Assembly: GCA_018830485.1 (NCBI GenBank) | Contig: JAHJRQ010000021.1 | Location: 1-64,000 of the forward strand | Source of the DNA: Pseudomonadota bacterium | GTDB taxonomy: Bacteria > Desulfobacterota > Desulfobulbia > Desulfobulbales > Desulfurivibrionaceae | Length of the DNA: 64,000 nt | Reading direction: 5' to 3' | Shown here: one piece after another, positions 8,894 to 56,061 of the stretch | How positions within the stretch are numbered: the first letter of the stretch is position 1 | Layout: each line of letters starts with the position of its first letter | Notes under the pieces: model-generated | Seen by the model: the letters and a program-made list of their open reading frames with translations, nothing else | Databases searched by the model: none | Told to the model about the DNA's origin: nothing | Translations under genes and position numbers: made by a program

Positions 8894-11332
8894 ATGCTTT
8901 CTCGACTCCTTGACCACATACACAGATGGAAAAAAGGCTCTCCCCCAGGCATTTCCGGGGAACCATCCGCCCAGAAACAGCCCGCCCTGATGCTTGCTGA
9001 AAACCCGCAGGTGCCCGTCTGGTCCCCCGGCGACACCATCCTTAACCGGTACCATATCGAACAGGTAATGTCGGGGTCCATGGGGAATGTTTACATCTCC
9101 GAGCATCTCGGCTGGAAAATAAAGGTCGCCATCAAAGCTCCCCGTCCTGAAGTGCTTGCGGACCGTGAAGGCATGAGCCGGATACTCAAGGAAGCCAACG
9201 GCTGGGTCCGAATGGGCATGCATCCCAATGTTGCCTCCTGTTTTTATGTTCTGGCCATCAACAAAATCCCCCATCTCTTCATTGAATTTATCGATGGGGG
9301 GAATCTTTCCGAATGGATCAAGGCCGGTCGATGCAGAAATCTCCGCACCGCCCTCTCTCTTGCCATTCAATTCTGTCACGGCATGGAATTCACCCACCAG
9401 CGCGGCATTATCCATCGCGATATCAAGCCCCAGAATATTCTGATCACCAAAAACTCCCTTTTAAAGATAACCGATTTCGGCATTCTCCTTGCCCACGGGG
9501 ATGCCGAAACAGGCGATGGCCTGGCGCCTGGAGCCGACCCGGCAGATCAGGAAGCGACCATCGGTTTTCGAGGAACCCTCGGCTACGCCTCCCCGGAACA
9601 ACTGCGCGATGCGCACACCGTTGACCTGCGAACGGACATTTTCTCTTTCGGCCTCTGCCTCTGGGTCATGCTCTGCGGTAGAAAGCCATTTATCAACAAC
9701 GCGCTGAAACATAAAATACCCAACCCCACGCCGGTGGCGCCGGACATTAAATTTCCCAAGGCGCTCAAAGAGGTATTGCGCAAAAGCGTTGCCTACAATC
9801 CCGACGACCGCTATGCCAATTTTGCCGAAATGCGGGCGGCCCTGAACGAAGCGTATACCGCTGCCTTTAACACCGCCTGCCCTTACGCGGAGCTCAGCAA
9901 TATCGATCTCAGGGCGGACAGTCTGAACAACAGGGCTGTCTCCCTTTTTGAGCTTGGGGAAATCAAGGAAGCTGCCGCCTGCCTCAACAAAACCCTTGAA
10001 ATCAACGAGATGCTTCCAGAAGCCGTGTACAATATGATCTTGCTCAACTGGCGTTCAGGGGCAAAAGCCACAAAAATTATTCGCCAGATCGAAACCGCCA
10101 AAAAGCGTGGCGCAACAACTCCCTGGCTCACCGAAATGGAGGGTGCGGTCAAGCGCAGTATGGTTGAGGACAAGGGCGATCCTGCCAAGCAGCAGTATCC
10201 GGAATTTCGCCTGTGCCTCCCTAAAAATTCCCTGGAAGTTTTTCGCGAAGGCCAGCTTCACCTCTCCGTGCAACGCAATATCCTCGACCATCTGGATAAT
10301 AAACGCTATGGCCCCTGCCATGATATCCTGATGACGGCCTGGAAAAACAGCAGCTACAAAAAAGACAAGATCTTCAACATGGTCTACCACCGGCTGTTGC
10401 TGGTGGGGACAAAAAAGAAGGTGCTGGGAGTCCAGCGCTTCCTGACCCTGAAGGGCGATGAGGGCCAGGTCAAGCATCTTGCCCATATCCCGAACACGAA
10501 AAAGTTTGTGGCTGCCGGTCCGGAAGGGAAAATAATCCTCCACGACCTGAGCACCTCCTCACATCAAAGCATTGTCTTGGCAAAAGAGGGCAGCGCCATT
10601 TCAGCCCTGGCCATCTGCCCGCTGGGCAAATACATCGCCGTGGGAGCGCAGGACGGCACGGTTTGCCTGTTTTCCACAAAAACCGGCAAACAGGAATCGA
10701 AGACCGCCGCCCACAACGGCCCGGTGCACGCCCTGGCCTTTAACGAAAATGGCCGCCACCTTGCCTCCGGCGGGGCAGACGGGATCATGAAGATACGCAA
10801 GCTTGGCACCGGGCCGGAAATGACAACCTCCATCAAGGAAGGTGGTTCCGTCCGCGCCATTATCTATACCGCCAGCGGCTTGAACCTGATAACCGGAAGC
10901 GAAGACGGCTCTGTCCGCTTCTGGGACGCCAACGGAAAAGAATGCACTAGGATCATCGAAGCCCATGCCATGCCGGTTATCTCCCTGGCAAATTCGCTTG
11001 ATGGCCAACGCTTTATCTCGGCCGGCACCGACCGGCATGTAAAAGTATGGGAACACACTACCGGCCGTTGCCTCAAATCCATCAAGGCGCACGACGAAAC
11101 CATTTCTTCCGCCTTGTTTCTCCAAGACAACCAGACCCTGATCTCCGGCTGTGAAGATGACATCATCAAGCTCTGGGACAGCAATAGCGGCGAATGCCTG
11201 GCCATTCTTGACGGCCGGGGCGACGGCATTTACAGCCTTGCCCACGGGCCTAAGCCCCACACCTTTCTTTCCGGCAGAAAAGATGGGGCCATTGTGTTCT
11301 GGATGGTCATCTATCAACTGCATTTTGAGTAA
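8894..11332 (+). CDS. Ser/Thr protein kinase with C-terminal WD40 repeats
   Basis: An 812-residue cytoplasmic protein with no obvious membrane segment. The kinase domain (about 52-320) shows a degenerate glycine loop (SGSMGNVYI), the ATP-binding Lys81 in VAIK, the catalytic loop HRDIKPQN near 175, DFG near 192 and the activation segment end YASPEQ. A TPR-like stretch follows (about 345-400). The last 300 residues form about six to seven WD40 blades, recognisable by endings such as VRFWD, VKVWE and IKLWD. It should phosphorylate Ser/Thr residues, with the propeller recruiting substrates. It sits second in an operon after an FHA protein and before a PP2C phosphatase that could reverse its action. 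Confidence 0.95.
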   Translation: MLSRLLDHIHRWKKGSPPGISGEPSAQKQPALMLAENPQVPVWSPGDTILNRYHIEQVMSGSMGNVYISEHLGWKIKVAIKAPRPEVLADREGMSRILKEANGWVRMGMHPNVASCFYVLAINKIPHLFIEFIDGGNLSEWIKAGRCRNLRTALSLAIQFCHGMEFTHQRGIIHRDIKPQNILITKNSLLKITDFGILLAHGDAETGDGLAPGADPADQEATIGFRGTLGYASPEQLRDAHTVDLRTDIFSFGLCLWVMLCGRKPFINNALKHKIPNPTPVAPDIKFPKALKEVLRKSVAYNPDDRYANFAEMRAALNEAYTAAFNTACPYAELSNIDLRADSLNNRAVSLFELGEIKEAAACLNKTLEINEMLPEAVYNMILLNWRSGAKATKIIRQIETAKKRGATTPWLTEMEGAVKRSMVEDKGDPAKQQYPEFRLCLPKNSLEVFREGQLHLSVQRNILDHLDNKRYGPCHDILMTAWKNSSYKKDKIFNMVYHRLLLVGTKKKVLGVQRFLTLKGDEGQVKHLAHIPNTKKFVAAGPEGKIILHDLSTSSHQSIVLAKEGSAISALAICPLGKYIAVGAQDGTVCLFSTKTGKQESKTAAHNGPVHALAFNENGRHLASGGADGIMKIRKLGTGPEMTTSIKEGGSVRAIIYTASGLNLITGSEDGSVRFWDANGKECTRIIEAHAMPVISLANSLDGQRFISAGTDRHVKVWEHTTGRCLKSIKAHDETISSALFLQDNQTLISGCEDDIIKLWDSNSGECLAILDGRGDGIYSLAHGPKPHTFLSGRKDGAIVFWMVIYQLHFE

Positions 11333-48968: not shown

Positions 48969-50051
48969 TCAGTCCGTCTCGAGATTTTTCACATAGCGCT
49001 CGTAGCTGCCGAGATAAAATTCCGCCAGGGTCTGAAAGGCGGTAATGATCAAAGGGCCGTAAATGATGCCGAGAAGCCCGAAGGCGCTCAGTCCTCCGAT
49101 CATGGCGAGAAAAGCCAGCAGAATGTGCATCCTGACCCGATCGCCCACCATCTTCGCTTTCATGAAATACTCAATGATAATCGTGATAATCCCATACAGA
49201 GCCGTGATGATAACCGCGCCGGCCATATTGCCCTTAAAAGCGAGCACCAGGGCGGCGGGGATCAGCACCAGGCCGATGCCGACGATGGGCAGAAAAGCCA
49301 GCACCGCCATGATCAGCCCCCAGAGCACCGGCGGCCCCAGGGAAAACACGGCAAAGATGATGCCGCCCAGCACCCCCTGGATTATGGAGCAGATCCCGTT
49401 GCCGATCAGCACCGCGCCGGTGATTTCGTCGAACTTGGCGAACAGGCGCCGGCCCTGATCTTCGGGCAGGGGAGAGAGCCGGAGAATATAGTTCAGCAAA
49501 CGGTCCTGTTCGATCAGCAGAAAGAAGATGGTGAGAAGCATCAGCGAGAAGTTAAAAAGAAACAGTATGATGTTTCCGGCCCAGTTGCCCGCATGGCTGT
49601 AAACGAAATGCCCGACCGCCCGGACCAGTTCGGCGAACGCCCGGGTAATGTCTTCCGCCTCCAGGGAAAAACCCAGGATGGCGGCGATCTCCTGCAGGCT
49701 GAAAAACAGCGAGCTTTCTTGAAAGGCGCGGAACTTGAGGGCGAGATTGACACCCGACCCCAGGCCCCATTCATACAGATGCTTGGCCTCCTGGACCAAG
49801 GCGGTGGCAAAAAAGACCAGAGGAATGAAAACCAGCAGCATCACCAGGATGCAGGTCAAAAACGAGGCGAAAAACTCCGAGAGTTTGCGATTGAGCCGCT
49901 TGTAGGTCGGCAGAAAAACGCTGGTCAGCAGGTAGGAAAGGATCAGGATCGACAAAAAAGGCCAGAACAACCACCCGACCAAGAGGAGCGAGGCGAGGAA
50001 GAGAACCAGAAAATAACGCAGCACCATCGGCGATGGCGAGTTTTCGTGCAT
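48969..50051 (-). CDS. AI-2E family transporter (PerM/YdiK-like)
   Basis: This 360-residue membrane protein has about eight hydrophobic segments (about 8-55, 60-85, 145-175, 205-300, 305-340) in the arrangement of AI-2E family permeases. The conserved C-terminal region GLSAFGLLGIIYGPLIITAF is clear. Members include an autoinducer-2 exporter and Na+/H+ antiporters, so the substrate cannot be assigned. It is convergent with the NrfJ-like gene. Confidence 0.92.
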   Translation of the reverse strand: MHENSPSPMVLRYFLVLFLASLLLVGWLFWPFLSILILSYLLTSVFLPTYKRLNRKLSEFFASFLTCILVMLLVFIPLVFFATALVQEAKHLYEWGLGSGVNLALKFRAFQESSLFFSLQEIAAILGFSLEAEDITRAFAELVRAVGHFVYSHAGNWAGNIILFLFNFSLMLLTIFFLLIEQDRLLNYILRLSPLPEDQGRRLFAKFDEITGAVLIGNGICSIIQGVLGGIIFAVFSLGPPVLWGLIMAVLAFLPIVGIGLVLIPAALVLAFKGNMAGAVIITALYGIITIIIEYFMKAKMVGDRVRMHILLAFLAMIGGLSAFGLLGIIYGPLIITAFQTLAEFYLGSYERYVKNLETD

Positions 50052-50240
50052 GGGGTTGTCCTGTTATTTGATAAGCCGTCATCGGGGTGGCCGACCATTT
50101 ACTCTACCGAATGATGTCGTGATCTGCCAAGTGAAATTCGCTGCTTCACTCAGGGAAAAATTGCCTTGCCCGTTGGGAATGTTTATAATCAACATCTCCT
50201 GACTCCGCTTGTTCAAATCAATCTGGGGGATGAAAAAAGC

Positions 50241-51377
50241 ATGCTCCTTTTCCTGCTGCTGTATCTCTCCATGTATCCCCTCGTCCACTACTATGCCTTG
50301 CGCAAGATCGGCGTGGCCTTTCAGCCCGGCAAAAGGACCACGCGGGGCATAGCCCTGTTCATGGCGATCATGATCGCGGCGCCGATTTTGGTCCGGGTGG
50401 CGGAACGGGCGGGAATTGAAACCGGAGCCCGATTCTGGGCCTATGCCAGCTTCAGTTGGATGGGATTGCTTTTTCTCTTCCTGACCCTTTCCGTAGCTAT
50501 TGATGCGGTCCGATTTGCCGTGCAGGCAACGGAAAAAATCCTGAAACAAAGGCTTTTCCGGTCGACTCTGTCGCCGCGCCGGATCTTTGCCATACAGGCG
50601 ATGCTGGTGGTTGCGATTTACGGCTACGGGATTTTCGAGGCAAAGGACATCCGCCTGGAACGGATCGAGATCGCCAATCCCAAGATTGCCGAGCCCCAAG
50701 GCAAGATACGCATTGCCCAGATTTCGGATGTGCATCTTGGCCTCATCGTACGGGAAGGCAGGCTGAGCCGGATTCTCGCCCGGATAGAGGAAGCTCGGCC
50801 CGATATCCTGGTCTCCACGGGCGACCTGCTTGACGGCCAGCTCAACCACCTCGGCACGGAGGCTGCATTGCTGGCGACAATCAGGCCGCCCTTGGGCAAA
50901 TTTGCCATTACCGGCAACCATGAATTTTACGCCGGGTTGCAGGATGCCCTGGACTTTACCAGAAAATCAGGCTTCACCCTGTTGCGCGATCAGGGAGTCG
51001 TGGCCGGAGGCATCACGTTCGTCGGGGTGGACGATCCGACCGTCACACTCTTTGACAAAAAACCGGCCACACCGGAAAGCGATCTTCTCTCCGTCCAATC
51101 CAGAGAAAATTTCACCATCCTGCTCAAACACCGCCCGGATCTTGACCCGGCAAGCCTGGGTCTTTTCGATCTCCAGCTTTCCGGCCACACCCACAAGGGC
51201 CAGATATTCCCCTTCAACCTGCTCACCTGGTTCCTGTATCCCCACACAGCCGGCCGGCTCACGCCCCTTACCAGCGGCTTTCTCTACTCGAGTCCGGGCA
51301 CCGGCACCTGGGGGCCGCCCATCCGCTTCCTGGCTCCGCCGGAAGTGACCATCATCGACCTGGTGCCTGTGAAATAA
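50241..51377 (+). CDS. Membrane metallophosphoesterase (YaeI/YkuE-like)
   Basis: This 378-residue protein has three or four N-terminal membrane helices (about 2-20, 35-55, 67-90, 112-130) and a C-terminal calcineurin-like phosphoesterase domain with the metal-binding motifs ISDVHLG, STGDLLDG, ITGNHEFY and SGHTHKGQ. Homologues hydrolyse UDP-sugars or lipid phosphoesters at the membrane. The ATG at 50241 lies behind a GGGGGA site; an in-frame start at 50166 would add a non-hydrophobic extension. Confidence 0.93.
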   Translation: MLLFLLLYLSMYPLVHYYALRKIGVAFQPGKRTTRGIALFMAIMIAAPILVRVAERAGIETGARFWAYASFSWMGLLFLFLTLSVAIDAVRFAVQATEKILKQRLFRSTLSPRRIFAIQAMLVVAIYGYGIFEAKDIRLERIEIANPKIAEPQGKIRIAQISDVHLGLIVREGRLSRILARIEEARPDILVSTGDLLDGQLNHLGTEAALLATIRPPLGKFAITGNHEFYAGLQDALDFTRKSGFTLLRDQGVVAGGITFVGVDDPTVTLFDKKPATPESDLLSVQSRENFTILLKHRPDLDPASLGLFDLQLSGHTHKGQIFPFNLLTWFLYPHTAGRLTPLTSGFLYSSPGTGTWGPPIRFLAPPEVTIIDLVPVK

Positions 51378-51414
51378 GCCCCCGAGATCTTACTGCTTGC
51401 ACGGATACTTCAAG

Positions 51415-52614
51415 TCAAGCACATACTGATTCTTGCAGGTGGACATTGTCCTGAACCCAATCGATTGATCGCACAAAATTCTTCACATATGCAACCCGCA
51501 AAGCAGTATCCTCGTCGATTTCCCCCTCCAGCCTGAAATTTTGCAAAAACGGCTCCAGCCGGCGGGCTGCAAGTTTCGCCGAGGCAAGGATCTCCAGCTT
51601 TACGAACTCACAATGCGCCACTGTCCGGATATCAACCGAATTGCATATTTCATGGTTGGCGCCGAGACAGGAATGACAGAGACGCCGCACCCCGCATCGG
51701 ACGCATTGTGACGGGCCCTTGATCTGCTTGTCAAATTCAATGTGCTGCGTTGGCGCGGAAGAACCGAGAGGGCTGAAACGATGGCAAGGATATTCTTTGC
51801 CGTCAGGCATGATTGCGGTCATGTACTTCCCTGCGCCGCAATATTTTTCTTCCAGGCCATACTCCTGCTCCGCGCAGAGTGTTTCAATCCGGTGCCCGAC
51901 CAATTTTGGCGCCGGCAATTCGGGATGGGCAACATAAAACGCCACAAGTTTGTCAAGCTCGCGGGCATAAACCCGAAGCAATCGGGACTTTTCTTCGGGC
52001 GTACCCCATATGTTTTCAAAAACGACATTCGCCTCCGGTTTTAAGCCCAGCTCATGGATATGCACAATGGAATCCGCCAGTCGAGGGATGGTAAACGGCG
52101 AAATGGTCATTTTAACCGTTTGGTCATATCTTCTGAAAAAATCGACATGCCGTACTACCCTGTCATAGGAGTTGGAGCGGTTATGGTCATGAACCTCTTT
52201 GGTCCCATCCAGGCTCAGACTCAACTGGAAACAGGGATGCCCCAAAAACCACTCCTTCATGGCTTCGGTCAAAACAGTGCCATTGGTCCCCAGAGACATC
52301 CTGTATCTTTTTTTCCACGTCCGCGAGTGACAATACTCAAAAACCTTTTTGATCAAGTCAAACTCAAGGAGCGGTTCTCCCCCGCAGAAATCAATGCTCA
52401 CCGTTGCTGGGCCTTCTTCGCGGTCCAGATATGTATCGATTGCCTGCCGGGCAACGTCGAAGCTCATCTTTTTCGGGCGCTTATTCGGTTCAAAACAGTA
52501 GATGCATCGAAGATTGCAATCTTCGGTTACCAGAAAGGTTAAATTAAACTCAATCTCATCGTTTCCACGATTCCGCCGGACAATCTCATTGATGACGCCA
52601 TATGCGTGTTCCAT
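51415..52614 (-). CDS. Radical SAM/SPASM enzyme, putative maturase of the CXXX-repeat peptide
   Basis: This 399-residue enzyme has the radical SAM cluster motif CNLRCIYCFEP near 33 and the later GGEP motif (FCGGEPLLEF) that contacts SAM. The C-terminal SPASM region has many Cys: CGAGKYMTAIMPDG, YPCHRF, then CVRCGVRRLCHSC, with EICNS and HCEF, enough for two auxiliary Fe-S clusters. SPASM enzymes commonly form thioether or carbon-carbon crosslinks in ribosomal peptides. The gene starts 10 bp after a Cys-repeat protein, its likely substrate. The ATG at 52614 has AGGGA upstream; the longer frame overlaps the repeat-coding DNA. Confidence 0.93.
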   Translation of the reverse strand: MEHAYGVINEIVRRNRGNDEIEFNLTFLVTEDCNLRCIYCFEPNKRPKKMSFDVARQAIDTYLDREEGPATVSIDFCGGEPLLEFDLIKKVFEYCHSRTWKKRYRMSLGTNGTVLTEAMKEWFLGHPCFQLSLSLDGTKEVHDHNRSNSYDRVVRHVDFFRRYDQTVKMTISPFTIPRLADSIVHIHELGLKPEANVVFENIWGTPEEKSRLLRVYARELDKLVAFYVAHPELPAPKLVGHRIETLCAEQEYGLEEKYCGAGKYMTAIMPDGKEYPCHRFSPLGSSAPTQHIEFDKQIKGPSQCVRCGVRRLCHSCLGANHEICNSVDIRTVAHCEFVKLEILASAKLAARRLEPFLQNFRLEGEIDEDTALRVAYVKNFVRSIDWVQDNVHLQESVCA

Positions 52615-52624
52615 GGTTCTGTCC

Positions 52625-53323
52625 CTACCGTCCAGCCTTGATCGGCCCAAGACATCCGCCGGTGCAGCCACCCATGCACGTTCCGGTGCAGCCCGTGCAC
52701 TGGTTCTGACACCCTCCCATGCATCCGCCGCCGCAACTGTTGAAACAGCCGTCTTTGCAACCACCCATACAGGCGCCGCCGCAACTGTTCAGACAGCCAC
52801 CGGAGCACCCGCCGTAGCATGAATCCTTGCACCCTCCCTTGCATCCGGAGCAGTCCCCGGGAATAGGCGGCACGGGAATGGGGATATTTCCCAGGCCCCG
52901 ATGCTCCAGAAAGGTATTTTCAAGCTGCGCCATGATGGAGGTAATACGCTTGCGATCACCGGCGCCCAGACGGAGTGTCTCTTCGGATGCGCTCCCCAAC
53001 CGGTCGATGAGGTACACAGCATCGTCGGAGCTCAATCCGGACGTTGCCTGTGTTCCGGACTTCGAACCTTGTATTTTCTTCTTGTTCTTCTCAATAACCG
53101 TATTGATTTTCTTGAGATCCTCTTCAAACGCTTTGTGGGCGATTCCCCATTCATCCTTGAGTTGTTCGCGTTTTTCAAGCAAATGGGCGATTTCCTCGTC
53201 CAGCAGATTCAATTTCGCCGCAATCATCTCGCTTTTTGTGCCCAGGGCGTGAAAAGCCTTCACCCCCATTTCCCGCTGCACAAAACATGAGTCCAACAAG
53301 CTCCCCTCATTTTTTTTCGCCAT
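52625..53323 (-). CDS. Cys-every-fourth-residue protein, putative RiPP precursor
   Basis: This 232-residue protein has no recognised family. Residues 1-155 are polar and helical with a coiled coil (about 30-85) and a short Pro-rich hinge ([11 protein letters not shown], 146-156). Residues 158-224 hold 18 Cys at 158, 161, then every fourth residue from 165 to 209, then 212, 216, 220, 224. Spacers are mostly Gly, Ser, Asn, Lys and Asp, and [12 protein letters not shown] recurs as [13 protein letters not shown] radical SAM/SPASM gene follows 10 bp later. The likeliest reading is a precursor with a long leader and a multiply modified core. A Cys-rich metal or redox protein is the alternative. A GGGGGG tract precedes the ATG. 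Confidence 0.85.
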
Positions 53324-53607
53324 TGCCGCCCCCCTGTAAGAATATTTTGTTAGGCTGAAAATATATTATTCCACTGAAATAATAAAAAATTATTCCGGCC
53401 CATGTCAAACAATACGTGCACTGGGTCACCATGCCCCTCGCCGGAGAAAAACATCGTCGACCCGGGGCAGCAAAAGAACGGAACCAGTTGACTCCCTGCC
53501 CCCTTTTTCCCTAGAGTAAGGAGAGCATCCGTTTTTTGCTTGCCAGCTTGCCTCTTTGGCTGGCCGCAAAGAATAACCCGCTCGAAAACCATCGAGGGAG
53601 AAAGCTC

Positions 53608-56061
53608 TTGCCGCGTCCCATCCCACCAAAAAACCATCTCAAGCAGTTCGAGGCCATCCGCCGGGAACTGAAAAAAACCGTTCTCGACCAGGACGATGCC
53701 ATCGACGAGGTGGTGGATGCCTTCATCCATATGGCCTTCCTCCCGCCCAAGGAAGCTCCGCCAAAGGCGATTTTCACCTTCCTCGGGGCACCGGGCGTGG
53801 GCAAGATCTATCTGGCCCGGGTGCTCTGCTCCATGCTCAAAGAGCATGGGGGGTTCAAACATTTTGATCTCGAACGGTACAGCGAAGCGGAAAACGCCGA
53901 CCAGCTCCTCGCCCCCCAGGTGGTGGGCGAGGAGATCAAGGAAGGCGAACTGATCCGCTTTCTCCGCGCAACCCCCCGCGCCATCATCCTCTTTGAATCC
54001 ATCGAAATGGCGAGCAATCAGTTGCAGATGGCGCTGCTCGACCTGATCAGCAAGGAGGATCCGGACAACGGCATCAACTGCCGGGAGGTCATCTTCATCT
54101 TCACCTCCACCCTGAGCAGCGTCCTTTACCAGAGCAAGGAGTTTCAGGCCGCCTTCCGGCGCAGCAAGGCCAGGGCCCAGGGGTTGATCATGGAGACAAT
54201 CGCCAAGGAAAAGAAGGTGGCAGGCGAGGTGATTCAGGAGGCGATCACCCCGAAGCTCCTCTCCACCCTGGCCCAGAACTATATCATCCTCTTCAACCGT
54301 TTGGGCATCAATGCCATGGTCCGCATTGGCACTGATTCCCTGCTGCAACTGGCCGGCCACTTCCGGCAAAAAGGCATTGAGCTTGAATTCCCGGAGCTTA
54401 CGGATCTGGTCACCCTACTGGTGCTCGCCCTGGGTCCGGCGATTACCGCCAAAAAGGTGAAGCAGAAGCTGCCCGACGAGGTGCTTTTCAAGATCACCCG
54501 GTTTCTGCGACATTTGCCAGCCGCACCGGCCCGAATTGCCTTCAAGGTAACGAAAAAGGCCGAGGCCTCGCTGCACAAGCTTTCGGAGGCAGGCGAACAG
54601 CTCCTGCCCCAGATATACAAGAACAACCAAACCGTGGAGCTGACCTGGAAGGAGTACCAGCTTGGAGAAAAACTCATCTTCAGCCTGGACAAGGCGGAAA
54701 CCCGCGCCCTGCCGGTCAGCAAGGGGTTGTTGCGCAGCGAACGACCGGCCGTCGAATTCTCCGAGATCGGCTTTGAAAATATTGCCGGCAACCGCCAGAC
54801 CAAAACCACCCTGAAGCAGATCATCACCACCCTGAAAAAACCCGAGCTGGTGAAAAAATTTTCCATCAGCATGCCCAAGGGCATGTTGCTCCATGGACCG
54901 CCGGGGGTGGGAAAAACCTTGCTGGGCAAAGCCTTTGCCCGGGAGGCCGGCCGGCCCTATATCCATGTTTCCCGCACCGAGCTGTTTGACTCGGAATACA
55001 TCCGCCTGGTCTATCTCAAAGCGCGGGAATACGCCCCCAGTATCGTTTTCCTGGACGGCATTGATGTCAAGGGCTTGATGGAAGGAGTGCTGACCAGCGT
55101 GCCTTCCGACCAAATCGCCCTTGAAATCGACGCCCTTTCCGACGACCCGGAGGAATCGGTGTTCACCGTGGTCACGGCGGTAAGCCGAGAGGAGGTGCCG
55201 CCGCTGCTCATCGAACCTGACCGCATCGACACCTTTGTCGAAGCGCCGGAGCTTGACCGGGAGGCGCGGCGCTTCTTCGTCGAGCAGATTTTGAAAAAGC
55301 CCAATAACGGCAAAATCGATGTGGACAAGGTGGTGCGCTACATCTCGGGAATGAACGGCTACGAATTGCAGCGCATCGGCAAGGAAGCCTCCCTTCACGC
55401 CATCCGCCACGGCCTGAAGTGCATCAGCGAAGAGATCCTCATCGAGCAGATCAACATCATCAAGTACGGCTCCAGGCTTGAAAAAACGCATATCCGCAAC
55501 CTGGAGGAAGACCTGCGCCTGACCGCCTTCCACGAGGCCGGGCATGCGGTGCTCTCCTGCCTGCTGCTGCCGAACACCAAAATCGAGCAGGTGACCATTG
55601 CCCCGCGCCTGCGGGTTCTGGGCTTTATTTCTTACAGCTTCGAGGATTTTCCCAGCAACCTCTCGAAAGAAGAGATGTTCAACAACATCTGCGTGCTCAT
55701 GGCCGGAAGAACGGCGAGCATGAAAAAATTCGGGGCCAAGGGCATGGACACCGGCGCGGCCGGCGATCTTGAGGAGGCGACGCACCAGGCCTACACCGCC
55801 ATCGCCAACCTGGGCATGGACGAGGAGTTGGGTTTCGTCCATGCCGACACCCTGAGCCGCAACGTGAACAAAGACTTTTTTCGGGAGGTGGTGGAGCGCC
55901 AGGTCCGCCTCTGGATCGATAAGGCCACGCGAAAGGCCGGGGAAATGGTGGAGGCCCACTGGCAGCAGATAGAGACCCTGGCAAACATCCTGATCCGACA
56001 GGAGATCGTCGATGGCGGGGAGCTTGAAAGGATCATGCAGAAGAAAATGGGCGCGAAGTAG
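53608..56061 (+). CDS. Soluble FtsH-like metalloprotease with two degenerate AAA modules
   Basis: An 817-residue protein with no membrane helix. Module 1 (about 15-300) resembles the ClpB second AAA domain, but Walker A is GAPGVGKIY (Ile67 for Thr/Ser) and Walker B is ILFESIE. Module 2 (about 385-600) resembles FtsH with intact Walker A GPPGVGKTLL near 435 but Walker B FLDGID (Gly for Glu) and no clear arginine finger in the VSREEVPPLLIEPDRID region. The M41 protease part is complete: HEAGH at 642-646 and Asp720 in GAAGDLEEAT. It may act as a weak or ATP-gated protease. TTG at 53608 is chosen for GAGGGAG 7 bp upstream; a TTG at 53536 adds 24 codons. It diverges from the RiPP-like pair. Confidence 0.85.
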   Translation: MPRPIPPKNHLKQFEAIRRELKKTVLDQDDAIDEVVDAFIHMAFLPPKEAPPKAIFTFLGAPGVGKIYLARVLCSMLKEHGGFKHFDLERYSEAENADQLLAPQVVGEEIKEGELIRFLRATPRAIILFESIEMASNQLQMALLDLISKEDPDNGINCREVIFIFTSTLSSVLYQSKEFQAAFRRSKARAQGLIMETIAKEKKVAGEVIQEAITPKLLSTLAQNYIILFNRLGINAMVRIGTDSLLQLAGHFRQKGIELEFPELTDLVTLLVLALGPAITAKKVKQKLPDEVLFKITRFLRHLPAAPARIAFKVTKKAEASLHKLSEAGEQLLPQIYKNNQTVELTWKEYQLGEKLIFSLDKAETRALPVSKGLLRSERPAVEFSEIGFENIAGNRQTKTTLKQIITTLKKPELVKKFSISMPKGMLLHGPPGVGKTLLGKAFAREAGRPYIHVSRTELFDSEYIRLVYLKAREYAPSIVFLDGIDVKGLMEGVLTSVPSDQIALEIDALSDDPEESVFTVVTAVSREEVPPLLIEPDRIDTFVEAPELDREARRFFVEQILKKPNNGKIDVDKVVRYISGMNGYELQRIGKEASLHAIRHGLKCISEEILIEQINIIKYGSRLEKTHIRNLEEDLRLTAFHEAGHAVLSCLLLPNTKIEQVTIAPRLRVLGFISYSFEDFPSNLSKEEMFNNICVLMAGRTASMKKFGAKGMDTGAAGDLEEATHQAYTAIANLGMDEELGFVHADTLSRNVNKDFFREVVERQVRLWIDKATRKAGEMVEAHWQQIETLANILIRQEIVDGGELERIMQKKMGAK

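Follow-up and report, generated by a model that had tools for sequence, protein, structure and literature searches.

A candidate RiPP cassette pairing a long-leader CX3C-array protein with a radical SAM/SPASM enzyme in a Desulfurivibrio-like genus

Introduction

Among the described systems closest to the locus reported here, the maturase PapB forms Cys–Asp thioethers in CX3D repeats with a loss of 2 Da for each, and it tolerates spacings other than CX3D, although the CX3D spacing had suggested a helix (PMC9413430). A SCIFF maturase joins cysteine to threonine, and in the SCIFF peptide studied one of six cysteines was found to be cross-linked (PMC8326336). The CXXX-repeat systems form a third group, whose targets and enzymes are named in annotation libraries; the literature searched holds no mention of them under those names, and their chemistry therefore appears to be uncharacterised.

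The pair of genes described here was found in a 64,000-nucleotide stretch of DNA (the window) from a member of a Desulfurivibrio-like genus. It comprises a protein that ends in a long array of regularly spaced cysteines and an adjacent radical SAM/SPASM enzyme (Table 1), and represents an uncommonly large form, with a long leader, of a type of peptide-modification system known by name only; the enzyme very probably cross-links the array.

Table 1. Features of the locus, with positions in the window
Feature	Position	Strand	Basis
Precursor protein, 232 aa	52625..53323	-	Open reading frame; conserved in four species
Leader (predicted), residues 1-157	52853..53323	-	Structure model and alignment
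CX3C array, residues 158-224: 18 Cys, 15 CX3C and 2 CX2C steps	52652..52852	-	Cys spacing; dN/dS 0.023 versus G004
Radical SAM/SPASM enzyme, 399 aa	51415..52614	-	Domain and family profiles
Radical SAM cluster motif CNLRCIYC, residues 33-40	52495..52518	-	Translation; cysteines invariant in alignment
SPASM-type auxiliary-cluster cysteines, residues 259-335	51610..51840	-	Alignment
Two-gene inserted cassette (ends approximate)	51378..53475	-	Empty sites in G001, G003, G008 and G012
Metallophosphoesterase 3' end, with a copy beyond the opposite edge of the cassette (clearly seen in G007)	51333..51366	+	Sequence comparison
Putative decayed far-side copy of the metallophosphoesterase end	53440..53469	+	Aligned to the G007 copy; below BLAST detection in the window genome

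The cysteine-array protein

The precursor gene begins with an ATG preceded by a ribosome-binding-like GGGGGG run and encodes a protein with one cysteine at residue 13 and 18 more within 67 residues (positions 158, 161, 165 and on by fours to 205, 209, 212, 216, 220 and 224). Read along the array, the gaps are one of three, twelve of four, one of three and three of four, so that 15 of 17 equal four and the shorter steps fall at 158–161 and 209–212; the gap count on the translated frame reproduces exactly what an earlier sequence-only reading had described. When the 18 cysteines were shuffled 200,000 times within the same 67 residues, gaps of four numbered 1.8 on average and nine at most, against the 15 observed. 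The pattern is not due to chance, because all 18 cysteines are identical in an alignment of four species despite differing TGC/TGT codons (13/5 versus 8/10) and near-saturated synonymous sites. As the cysteines are kept while their codons switch between TGC and TGT, the alignment indicates that the array is conserved as protein, position by position. The dN/dS ratios against the orthologue in G004 are 0.038 for the enzyme and 0.077 for the leader (array value in Table 1); they are rough, synonymous sites in this comparison being near saturation, and they point to strong purifying selection on both genes. The cassette is real and functional.

The AlphaFold models, built on an alignment of four near-identical rows and of low confidence, place the helical part of the precursor at residues 9–141 with coil after it (mean pLDDT 47.9). 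Helices are predicted at residues 9–30, 32–89, 99–118 and 123–141, with a block pLDDT of 60–74 over residues 11–80, and this low-confidence model agrees with the earlier description of the leader as unusually long and helical. A proline-rich hinge, GNIPIPV(P/S)IPGD (residues 145–157), is near-invariant in the four-species alignment. The array is rich in glycine (25 of 75 residues, 33%) and is modelled as coil or disordered at a pLDDT of about 30, which, given the shallow alignment, is weak evidence taken alone. The sequence-only reading had suggested that the four-residue spacing would place all cysteines near one face of a helix. This suggestion is not supported: an alpha helix with its cysteines on one face is unlikely as a general principle of CX3C arrays, because the window array is glycine-rich and modelled as coil, and because an array in another genome of the phylum (L053, in G104) carries a proline in the middle of all 11 of its CX3C repeats, which excludes an alpha helix for that array.

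The radical SAM/SPASM enzyme

The enzyme gene starts at an ATG (position 52614) 10 bp past the precursor stop, as had been read from the sequence; less likely is a longer form of the frame with a GTG start, which would overlap the precursor. The radical SAM domain (Pfam PF04055, 1.3e-16) runs from about residue 25, and the enzyme carries no N-terminal peptide-recognition domain. The Pfam SPASM model gives no match on the window enzyme; the seven SPASM ligands C259, C277, C304, C307, C313, C316 and C335 are invariant in five aligned sequences, which include two TIGR04115/PapB-like relatives and a SCIFF-type enzyme. Among NCBIfam profiles, the enzyme scores best against TIGR04115 (173.7 bits, 7.5e-51), followed by PapB (169.3 bits, 1.3e-49), CcpM (114.8 bits) and SCIFF (105.7 bits), and the top families are peptide maturases, mostly for cysteine-rich targets. 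The nearest solved structure by sequence is 5wgg (CteB; E 4.7e-22), and the model of the window enzyme is poor (pLDDT 46).

Distribution and insertion of the gene pair

The precursor is present in 4 of 58 relatives, all within the host genus, where both genes occur in 4 of 17 genomes, always adjacent and in the same order, and neither occurs alone in any of the 17. Records of the orthologous loci bear the titles Deltaproteobacteria bacterium HGW-Deltaproteobacteria-3, Desulfurivibrio sp. S2_56 and Desulfobulbaceae bacterium UBA2273. Close homologues of the enzyme are found in exactly the four precursor-bearing genomes and in none of the rest of the 258 genomes of the order. A search of genome contigs returned orthologues only; the viral contigs searched contained no relative and the plasmids searched no relative of the precursor. 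Because it occurs in 4 of 17 genomes of the genus and no partner genes are constant across its loci, the pair is an accessory, dispensable trait. The order of the host genus includes the cable bacteria, and a role in the fibre material of these relatives was considered and set aside in view of the confinement of the enzyme to one genus among the 258 genomes of the order.

The pair is inserted as a unit. In the window genome (G000) and in G007 and G016, it sits between a metallophosphoesterase gene (50166–51377 in the window) and an FtsH-like gene (53536–56061), in the opposite orientation to both. In four pair-less genomes (G001, G003, G008 and G012), these two genes directly adjoin each other, about 100–240 bp apart, at the place where the pair of about 2.1 kb sits in the window genome. 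G004 carries the pair at a different locus, between a permease gene and a patatin-like gene (both names read from open reading frames), and shares with the window a core at 51417–53355 with a DNA identity of 79% and nothing outside it. Given the empty sites and this second location, the two genes come and go as one unit. To the right of the pair, the FtsH-like gene keeps its conserved promoter-like stretch (GTTGAC...TAGAGT) intact. In G007, the metallophosphoesterase 3' end recurs beyond the opposite edge of the cassette as a 34-bp copy (85%, 19 bp exact), and this repeat hints at a scar of insertion.

No other gene moves with the pair between the window and the G004 locus, a metal-resistance or metal-transport gene included, and next to it there is neither a protease nor an exporter, nor any cleavage site that could be recognised; the precursor has no signal sequence. 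This accords with the earlier remark that no exporter is adjacent. An AI-2E-family permease (48969–50051) was considered as an exporter and set aside, as its gene falls outside the cassette and the neighbours of the G004 pair are different ones. The FtsH-like gene on the right (plus strand) encodes an 841-aa protein in which a ClpA/ClpB-like AAA domain is fused to an FtsH-type AAA domain and M41 peptidase, and is found in 9 of the 17 genomes of the genus.

It is by gene linkage, co-occurrence and co-movement that the two genes show the RiPP arrangement of a precursor with a dedicated maturase. Since linkage is what connects them, the enzyme might act elsewhere with the cysteine-array protein as an unrelated neighbour, but this is highly improbable: the genes sit together at two different chromosomal places, neither was found without the other, and the same association of array and radical SAM gene recurs in unrelated enzyme lineages, as described below.

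CX3C arrays across the phylum

A DNA pattern of seven cysteines spaced by four was used to scan 395 genomes of the phylum, blind to neighbouring genes. Raw matches were found in 53 genomes, most of them microsatellites or antisense frames, and the reversed control of the pattern also fires in several of these genomes; about ten of the 53 gave no locus and were judged from the listed sequences alone or left out. An array counted as credible when no overlapping frame was as long as its own, neighbour content being ignored. Seven arrays were credible, namely those of the window, a second site in the window genome (L009), L090 (G393), L053, L065 (G381), L101 (G261) and L054 (G074). A radical SAM gene directly adjoins five of them (window, L009, L090, L053 and L065, all profile-checked) and none of the 38 non-credible ones (Fisher p 1.7e-5); the motif of L062 falls inside its own Cys-run frame. 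Cysteine-repeat proteins were thus not regularly found without a radical SAM gene, the two exceptions being L101 and L054, the latter a Cys-run frame that is almost certainly low-complexity.

The second pair in the window genome (G000 contig 8, about 103934–106104; L009:8935-11105) comprises a 244-aa precursor with 16 cysteines (8935–9669) and a 477-aa radical SAM/SPASM enzyme (9672–11105) that begins 2 bp past the precursor stop. Its precursor has a long N-terminus with no detected similarity to the window leader, followed by CX3C runs with CX2C slips, and was not found in any other of the 58 relatives. Its enzyme belongs to a different lineage, with a best match of mycofactocin/NirJ2 type and 24% identity to the window enzyme over a partial alignment; the association between radical SAM genes and CX3C arrays therefore extends beyond a single enzyme family. 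Strict co-occurrence, the empty site, the two loci, purifying selection and the radical SAM neighbours of the blind scan together give strong support to the reading of the window pair as precursor and maturase, which had been proposed from the sequence.

The remaining loci differ in architecture. The L053 protein (L053:1222-3074) combines a Tat-like N-terminus, a CxPx array with one CX2C slip and a peptidoglycan-binding-like C-terminus (a weak HxsA match) beside its radical SAM gene, and L090 holds a shorter Tat-like CX3C protein with a related enzyme beside it (31% identity). L065 (L065:1-3075) has a 531-aa open frame with an apparent membrane-spanning stretch and a C-terminus of seven CHXA units (CHDA, then CHSA six times), with the radical SAM gene directly after it. 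The 345-aa protein of L101 (L101:973-2010), which is apparently secreted, carries a CX3C array rich in Asp/Glu (CDDDCDDGCEDD...); no radical SAM gene lies within the 3 kb examined. A further locus, L043:2722-4534 (G016 contig 210), holds a SCIFF/PapB-like maturase (TIGR03974, 350 of 425 bits) with a 105-aa peptide upstream that carries a CX2-3C cluster.

Eighteen thiols in a glycine-rich tail would be expected to bind soft metals or persulfides, so that the tail might hold a metal or cluster in the manner of metallothionein while the radical SAM enzyme acts in some other or more restricted way, such as by one cross-link, an epimerisation or another C–H modification. The single cross-link among six cysteines of SCIFF (PMC8326336) offers a precedent, and some cysteine-array proteins have no radical SAM neighbour, such as the secreted, Asp-rich protein of L101. 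We nevertheless judge this reading improbable, as array and enzyme are strictly coupled in 4/4 genomes, five of the seven arrays found blind adjoin such an enzyme, and nothing for metal resistance or transport moves with the pair.

A possible mechanism

The locus is likely to be a RiPP cassette in minimal form, of the radical SAM type that acts on CXXX repeats, in which a leader would dock on the enzyme and a ladder of thioethers would form along the array. The helical N-terminus of 155 residues would be the recognition part that docks on the enzyme, which is a guess, and the proline-rich hinge would feed the flexible, glycine-rich tail into the active site. There, the 5'-deoxyadenosyl radical would abstract a hydrogen from a residue between cysteines, and the cysteine thiolate would close an S–C thioether on the radical residue; this thioether product is inferred from PapB and SCIFF/CteB. 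Repetition along the array could give a ladder of small rings, with up to 18 cross-links of 2 Da each, a number that is likewise guessed; since one of six cysteines was cross-linked in the SCIFF peptide studied (PMC8326336), the majority of the 18 may remain unlinked. The pair brings along neither a protease nor an exporter, so the product may stay attached to the leader, and with no signal sequence coming with the pair either, our best guess is that it is intracellular and protein-bound.

The acceptor residue bears on the type of linkage. PapB's acceptors are nearly absent from the window array, which has two Asp and no Glu, and the guess made here is that the acceptor is the residue that immediately precedes each following cysteine. 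Over the 15 CX3C repeats, this i+3 position is Gly in nine, Ser in three and Ala, Thr and Gln in one each, and of three further CX3C arrays tallied, two likewise have many small or hydroxyl residues at this position. Glycine lacks a beta carbon, and a Gly acceptor could be linked at the alpha carbon only; if this position is used, its occupation by Gly or Ser in 12 of the 15 repeats would favour alpha linkage. The product would then be sactipeptide-like, each cysteine closing onto the alpha carbon before the next in very small i to i+3 rings, a sub-case of the thioether ladder that differs from a ranthipeptide in regiochemistry. Such alpha linkage is a tentative possibility towards which we do not lean, because the enzyme scores best against TIGR04115 and PapB, the latter a beta-carbon former, and because Gly is abundant at i+2 too, so that the i+3 bias may reflect flexibility only.

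A broader and rather unlikely proposal is that several unrelated radical SAM lineages in the phylum have been matched independently to long CX3C arrays as a portable type of substrate, and that the window product, rather than being a small peptide for excretion, is a protein-tethered ladder of up to 18 consecutive thioether rings, more than the six described for freyrasin. Returning to the thioether ladder as such, cross-linking of every cysteine would yield a gene-encoded peptide with an exceptionally high density of thioether bridges, the work of an enzyme that lacks the usual N-terminal leader-binding domain. The pair is an attractive test case: it has two genes and close orthologues, the genome also contains an unrelated second pair, and the mass shift from a modification could be multiplied many times by the repeat array.

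Comparison with known systems

The closest resemblance is to the CXXX-repeat systems, in which a TIGR04115 enzyme is paired with TIGR04114 or TIGR04117 targets. The example on Anaerococcus prevotii pAPRE01 has the same gene order, peptide then radical SAM/SPASM enzyme, and its enzyme likewise lacks an N-terminal recognition domain and is 32% identical to the window enzyme over 342 aligned positions. In the window, too, a CX3C peptide gene lies 10 bp from the enzyme gene, and a check of neighbourhoods for the same pair found the two adjacent in all four genomes. The systems differ in size: the peptide directly upstream of the Anaerococcus enzyme has 56 aa and four CX3C-spaced cysteines, whereas the window target has 232 aa, 18 cysteines and a helical leader of about 155 aa, and the window enzyme is the shorter of the two (399 versus 728 aa). 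The nearest full-length relative is a Phocaeicola enzyme (31%), with no CX3C peptide within the stretch read. The window enzyme stays below the TIGR04115 cut-off (173.7 of 350 bits), and the precursor below those of both target profiles (TIGR04117, 19.9 of 50 bits; TIGR04114, 16.3 of 20 bits). Searches of the 395 phylum genomes with the TIGR04115 and TIGR04117 profiles found no member above cut-off, and weak TIGR04115 matches outside the host genus had no convincing cysteine-array neighbour in the loci examined.

The freyrasin pair PapA/PapB (a ranthipeptide system, NF047865) shares with the window a four-residue target periodicity and a related enzyme, but PapA uses CX3D/E repeats with Asp or Glu acceptors, whereas the window target is CX3C with almost no acidic residues, and the window enzyme is below the PapB family cut-off of 340 bits. 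SCIFF/CteB (TIGR03974; PDB 5wgg) also acts on a cysteine-rich target, with six cysteines in forty-five residues compared with 18 in 67; CteB (453 aa) has a longer N-terminus than the window enzyme, whose SCIFF score reaches 105.7 of the 425 bits required. The Cys-every-fifth system (CefB, NF038107), for which regular target spacing is taken from the family name alone, has a related radical SAM/SPASM enzyme that is a weak match (69 of 600 bits). By these sequence comparisons, the window pair is best described as a long-leader, high-repeat variant that would work like the CXXX-repeat systems, and not as a member of them by published cut-offs.
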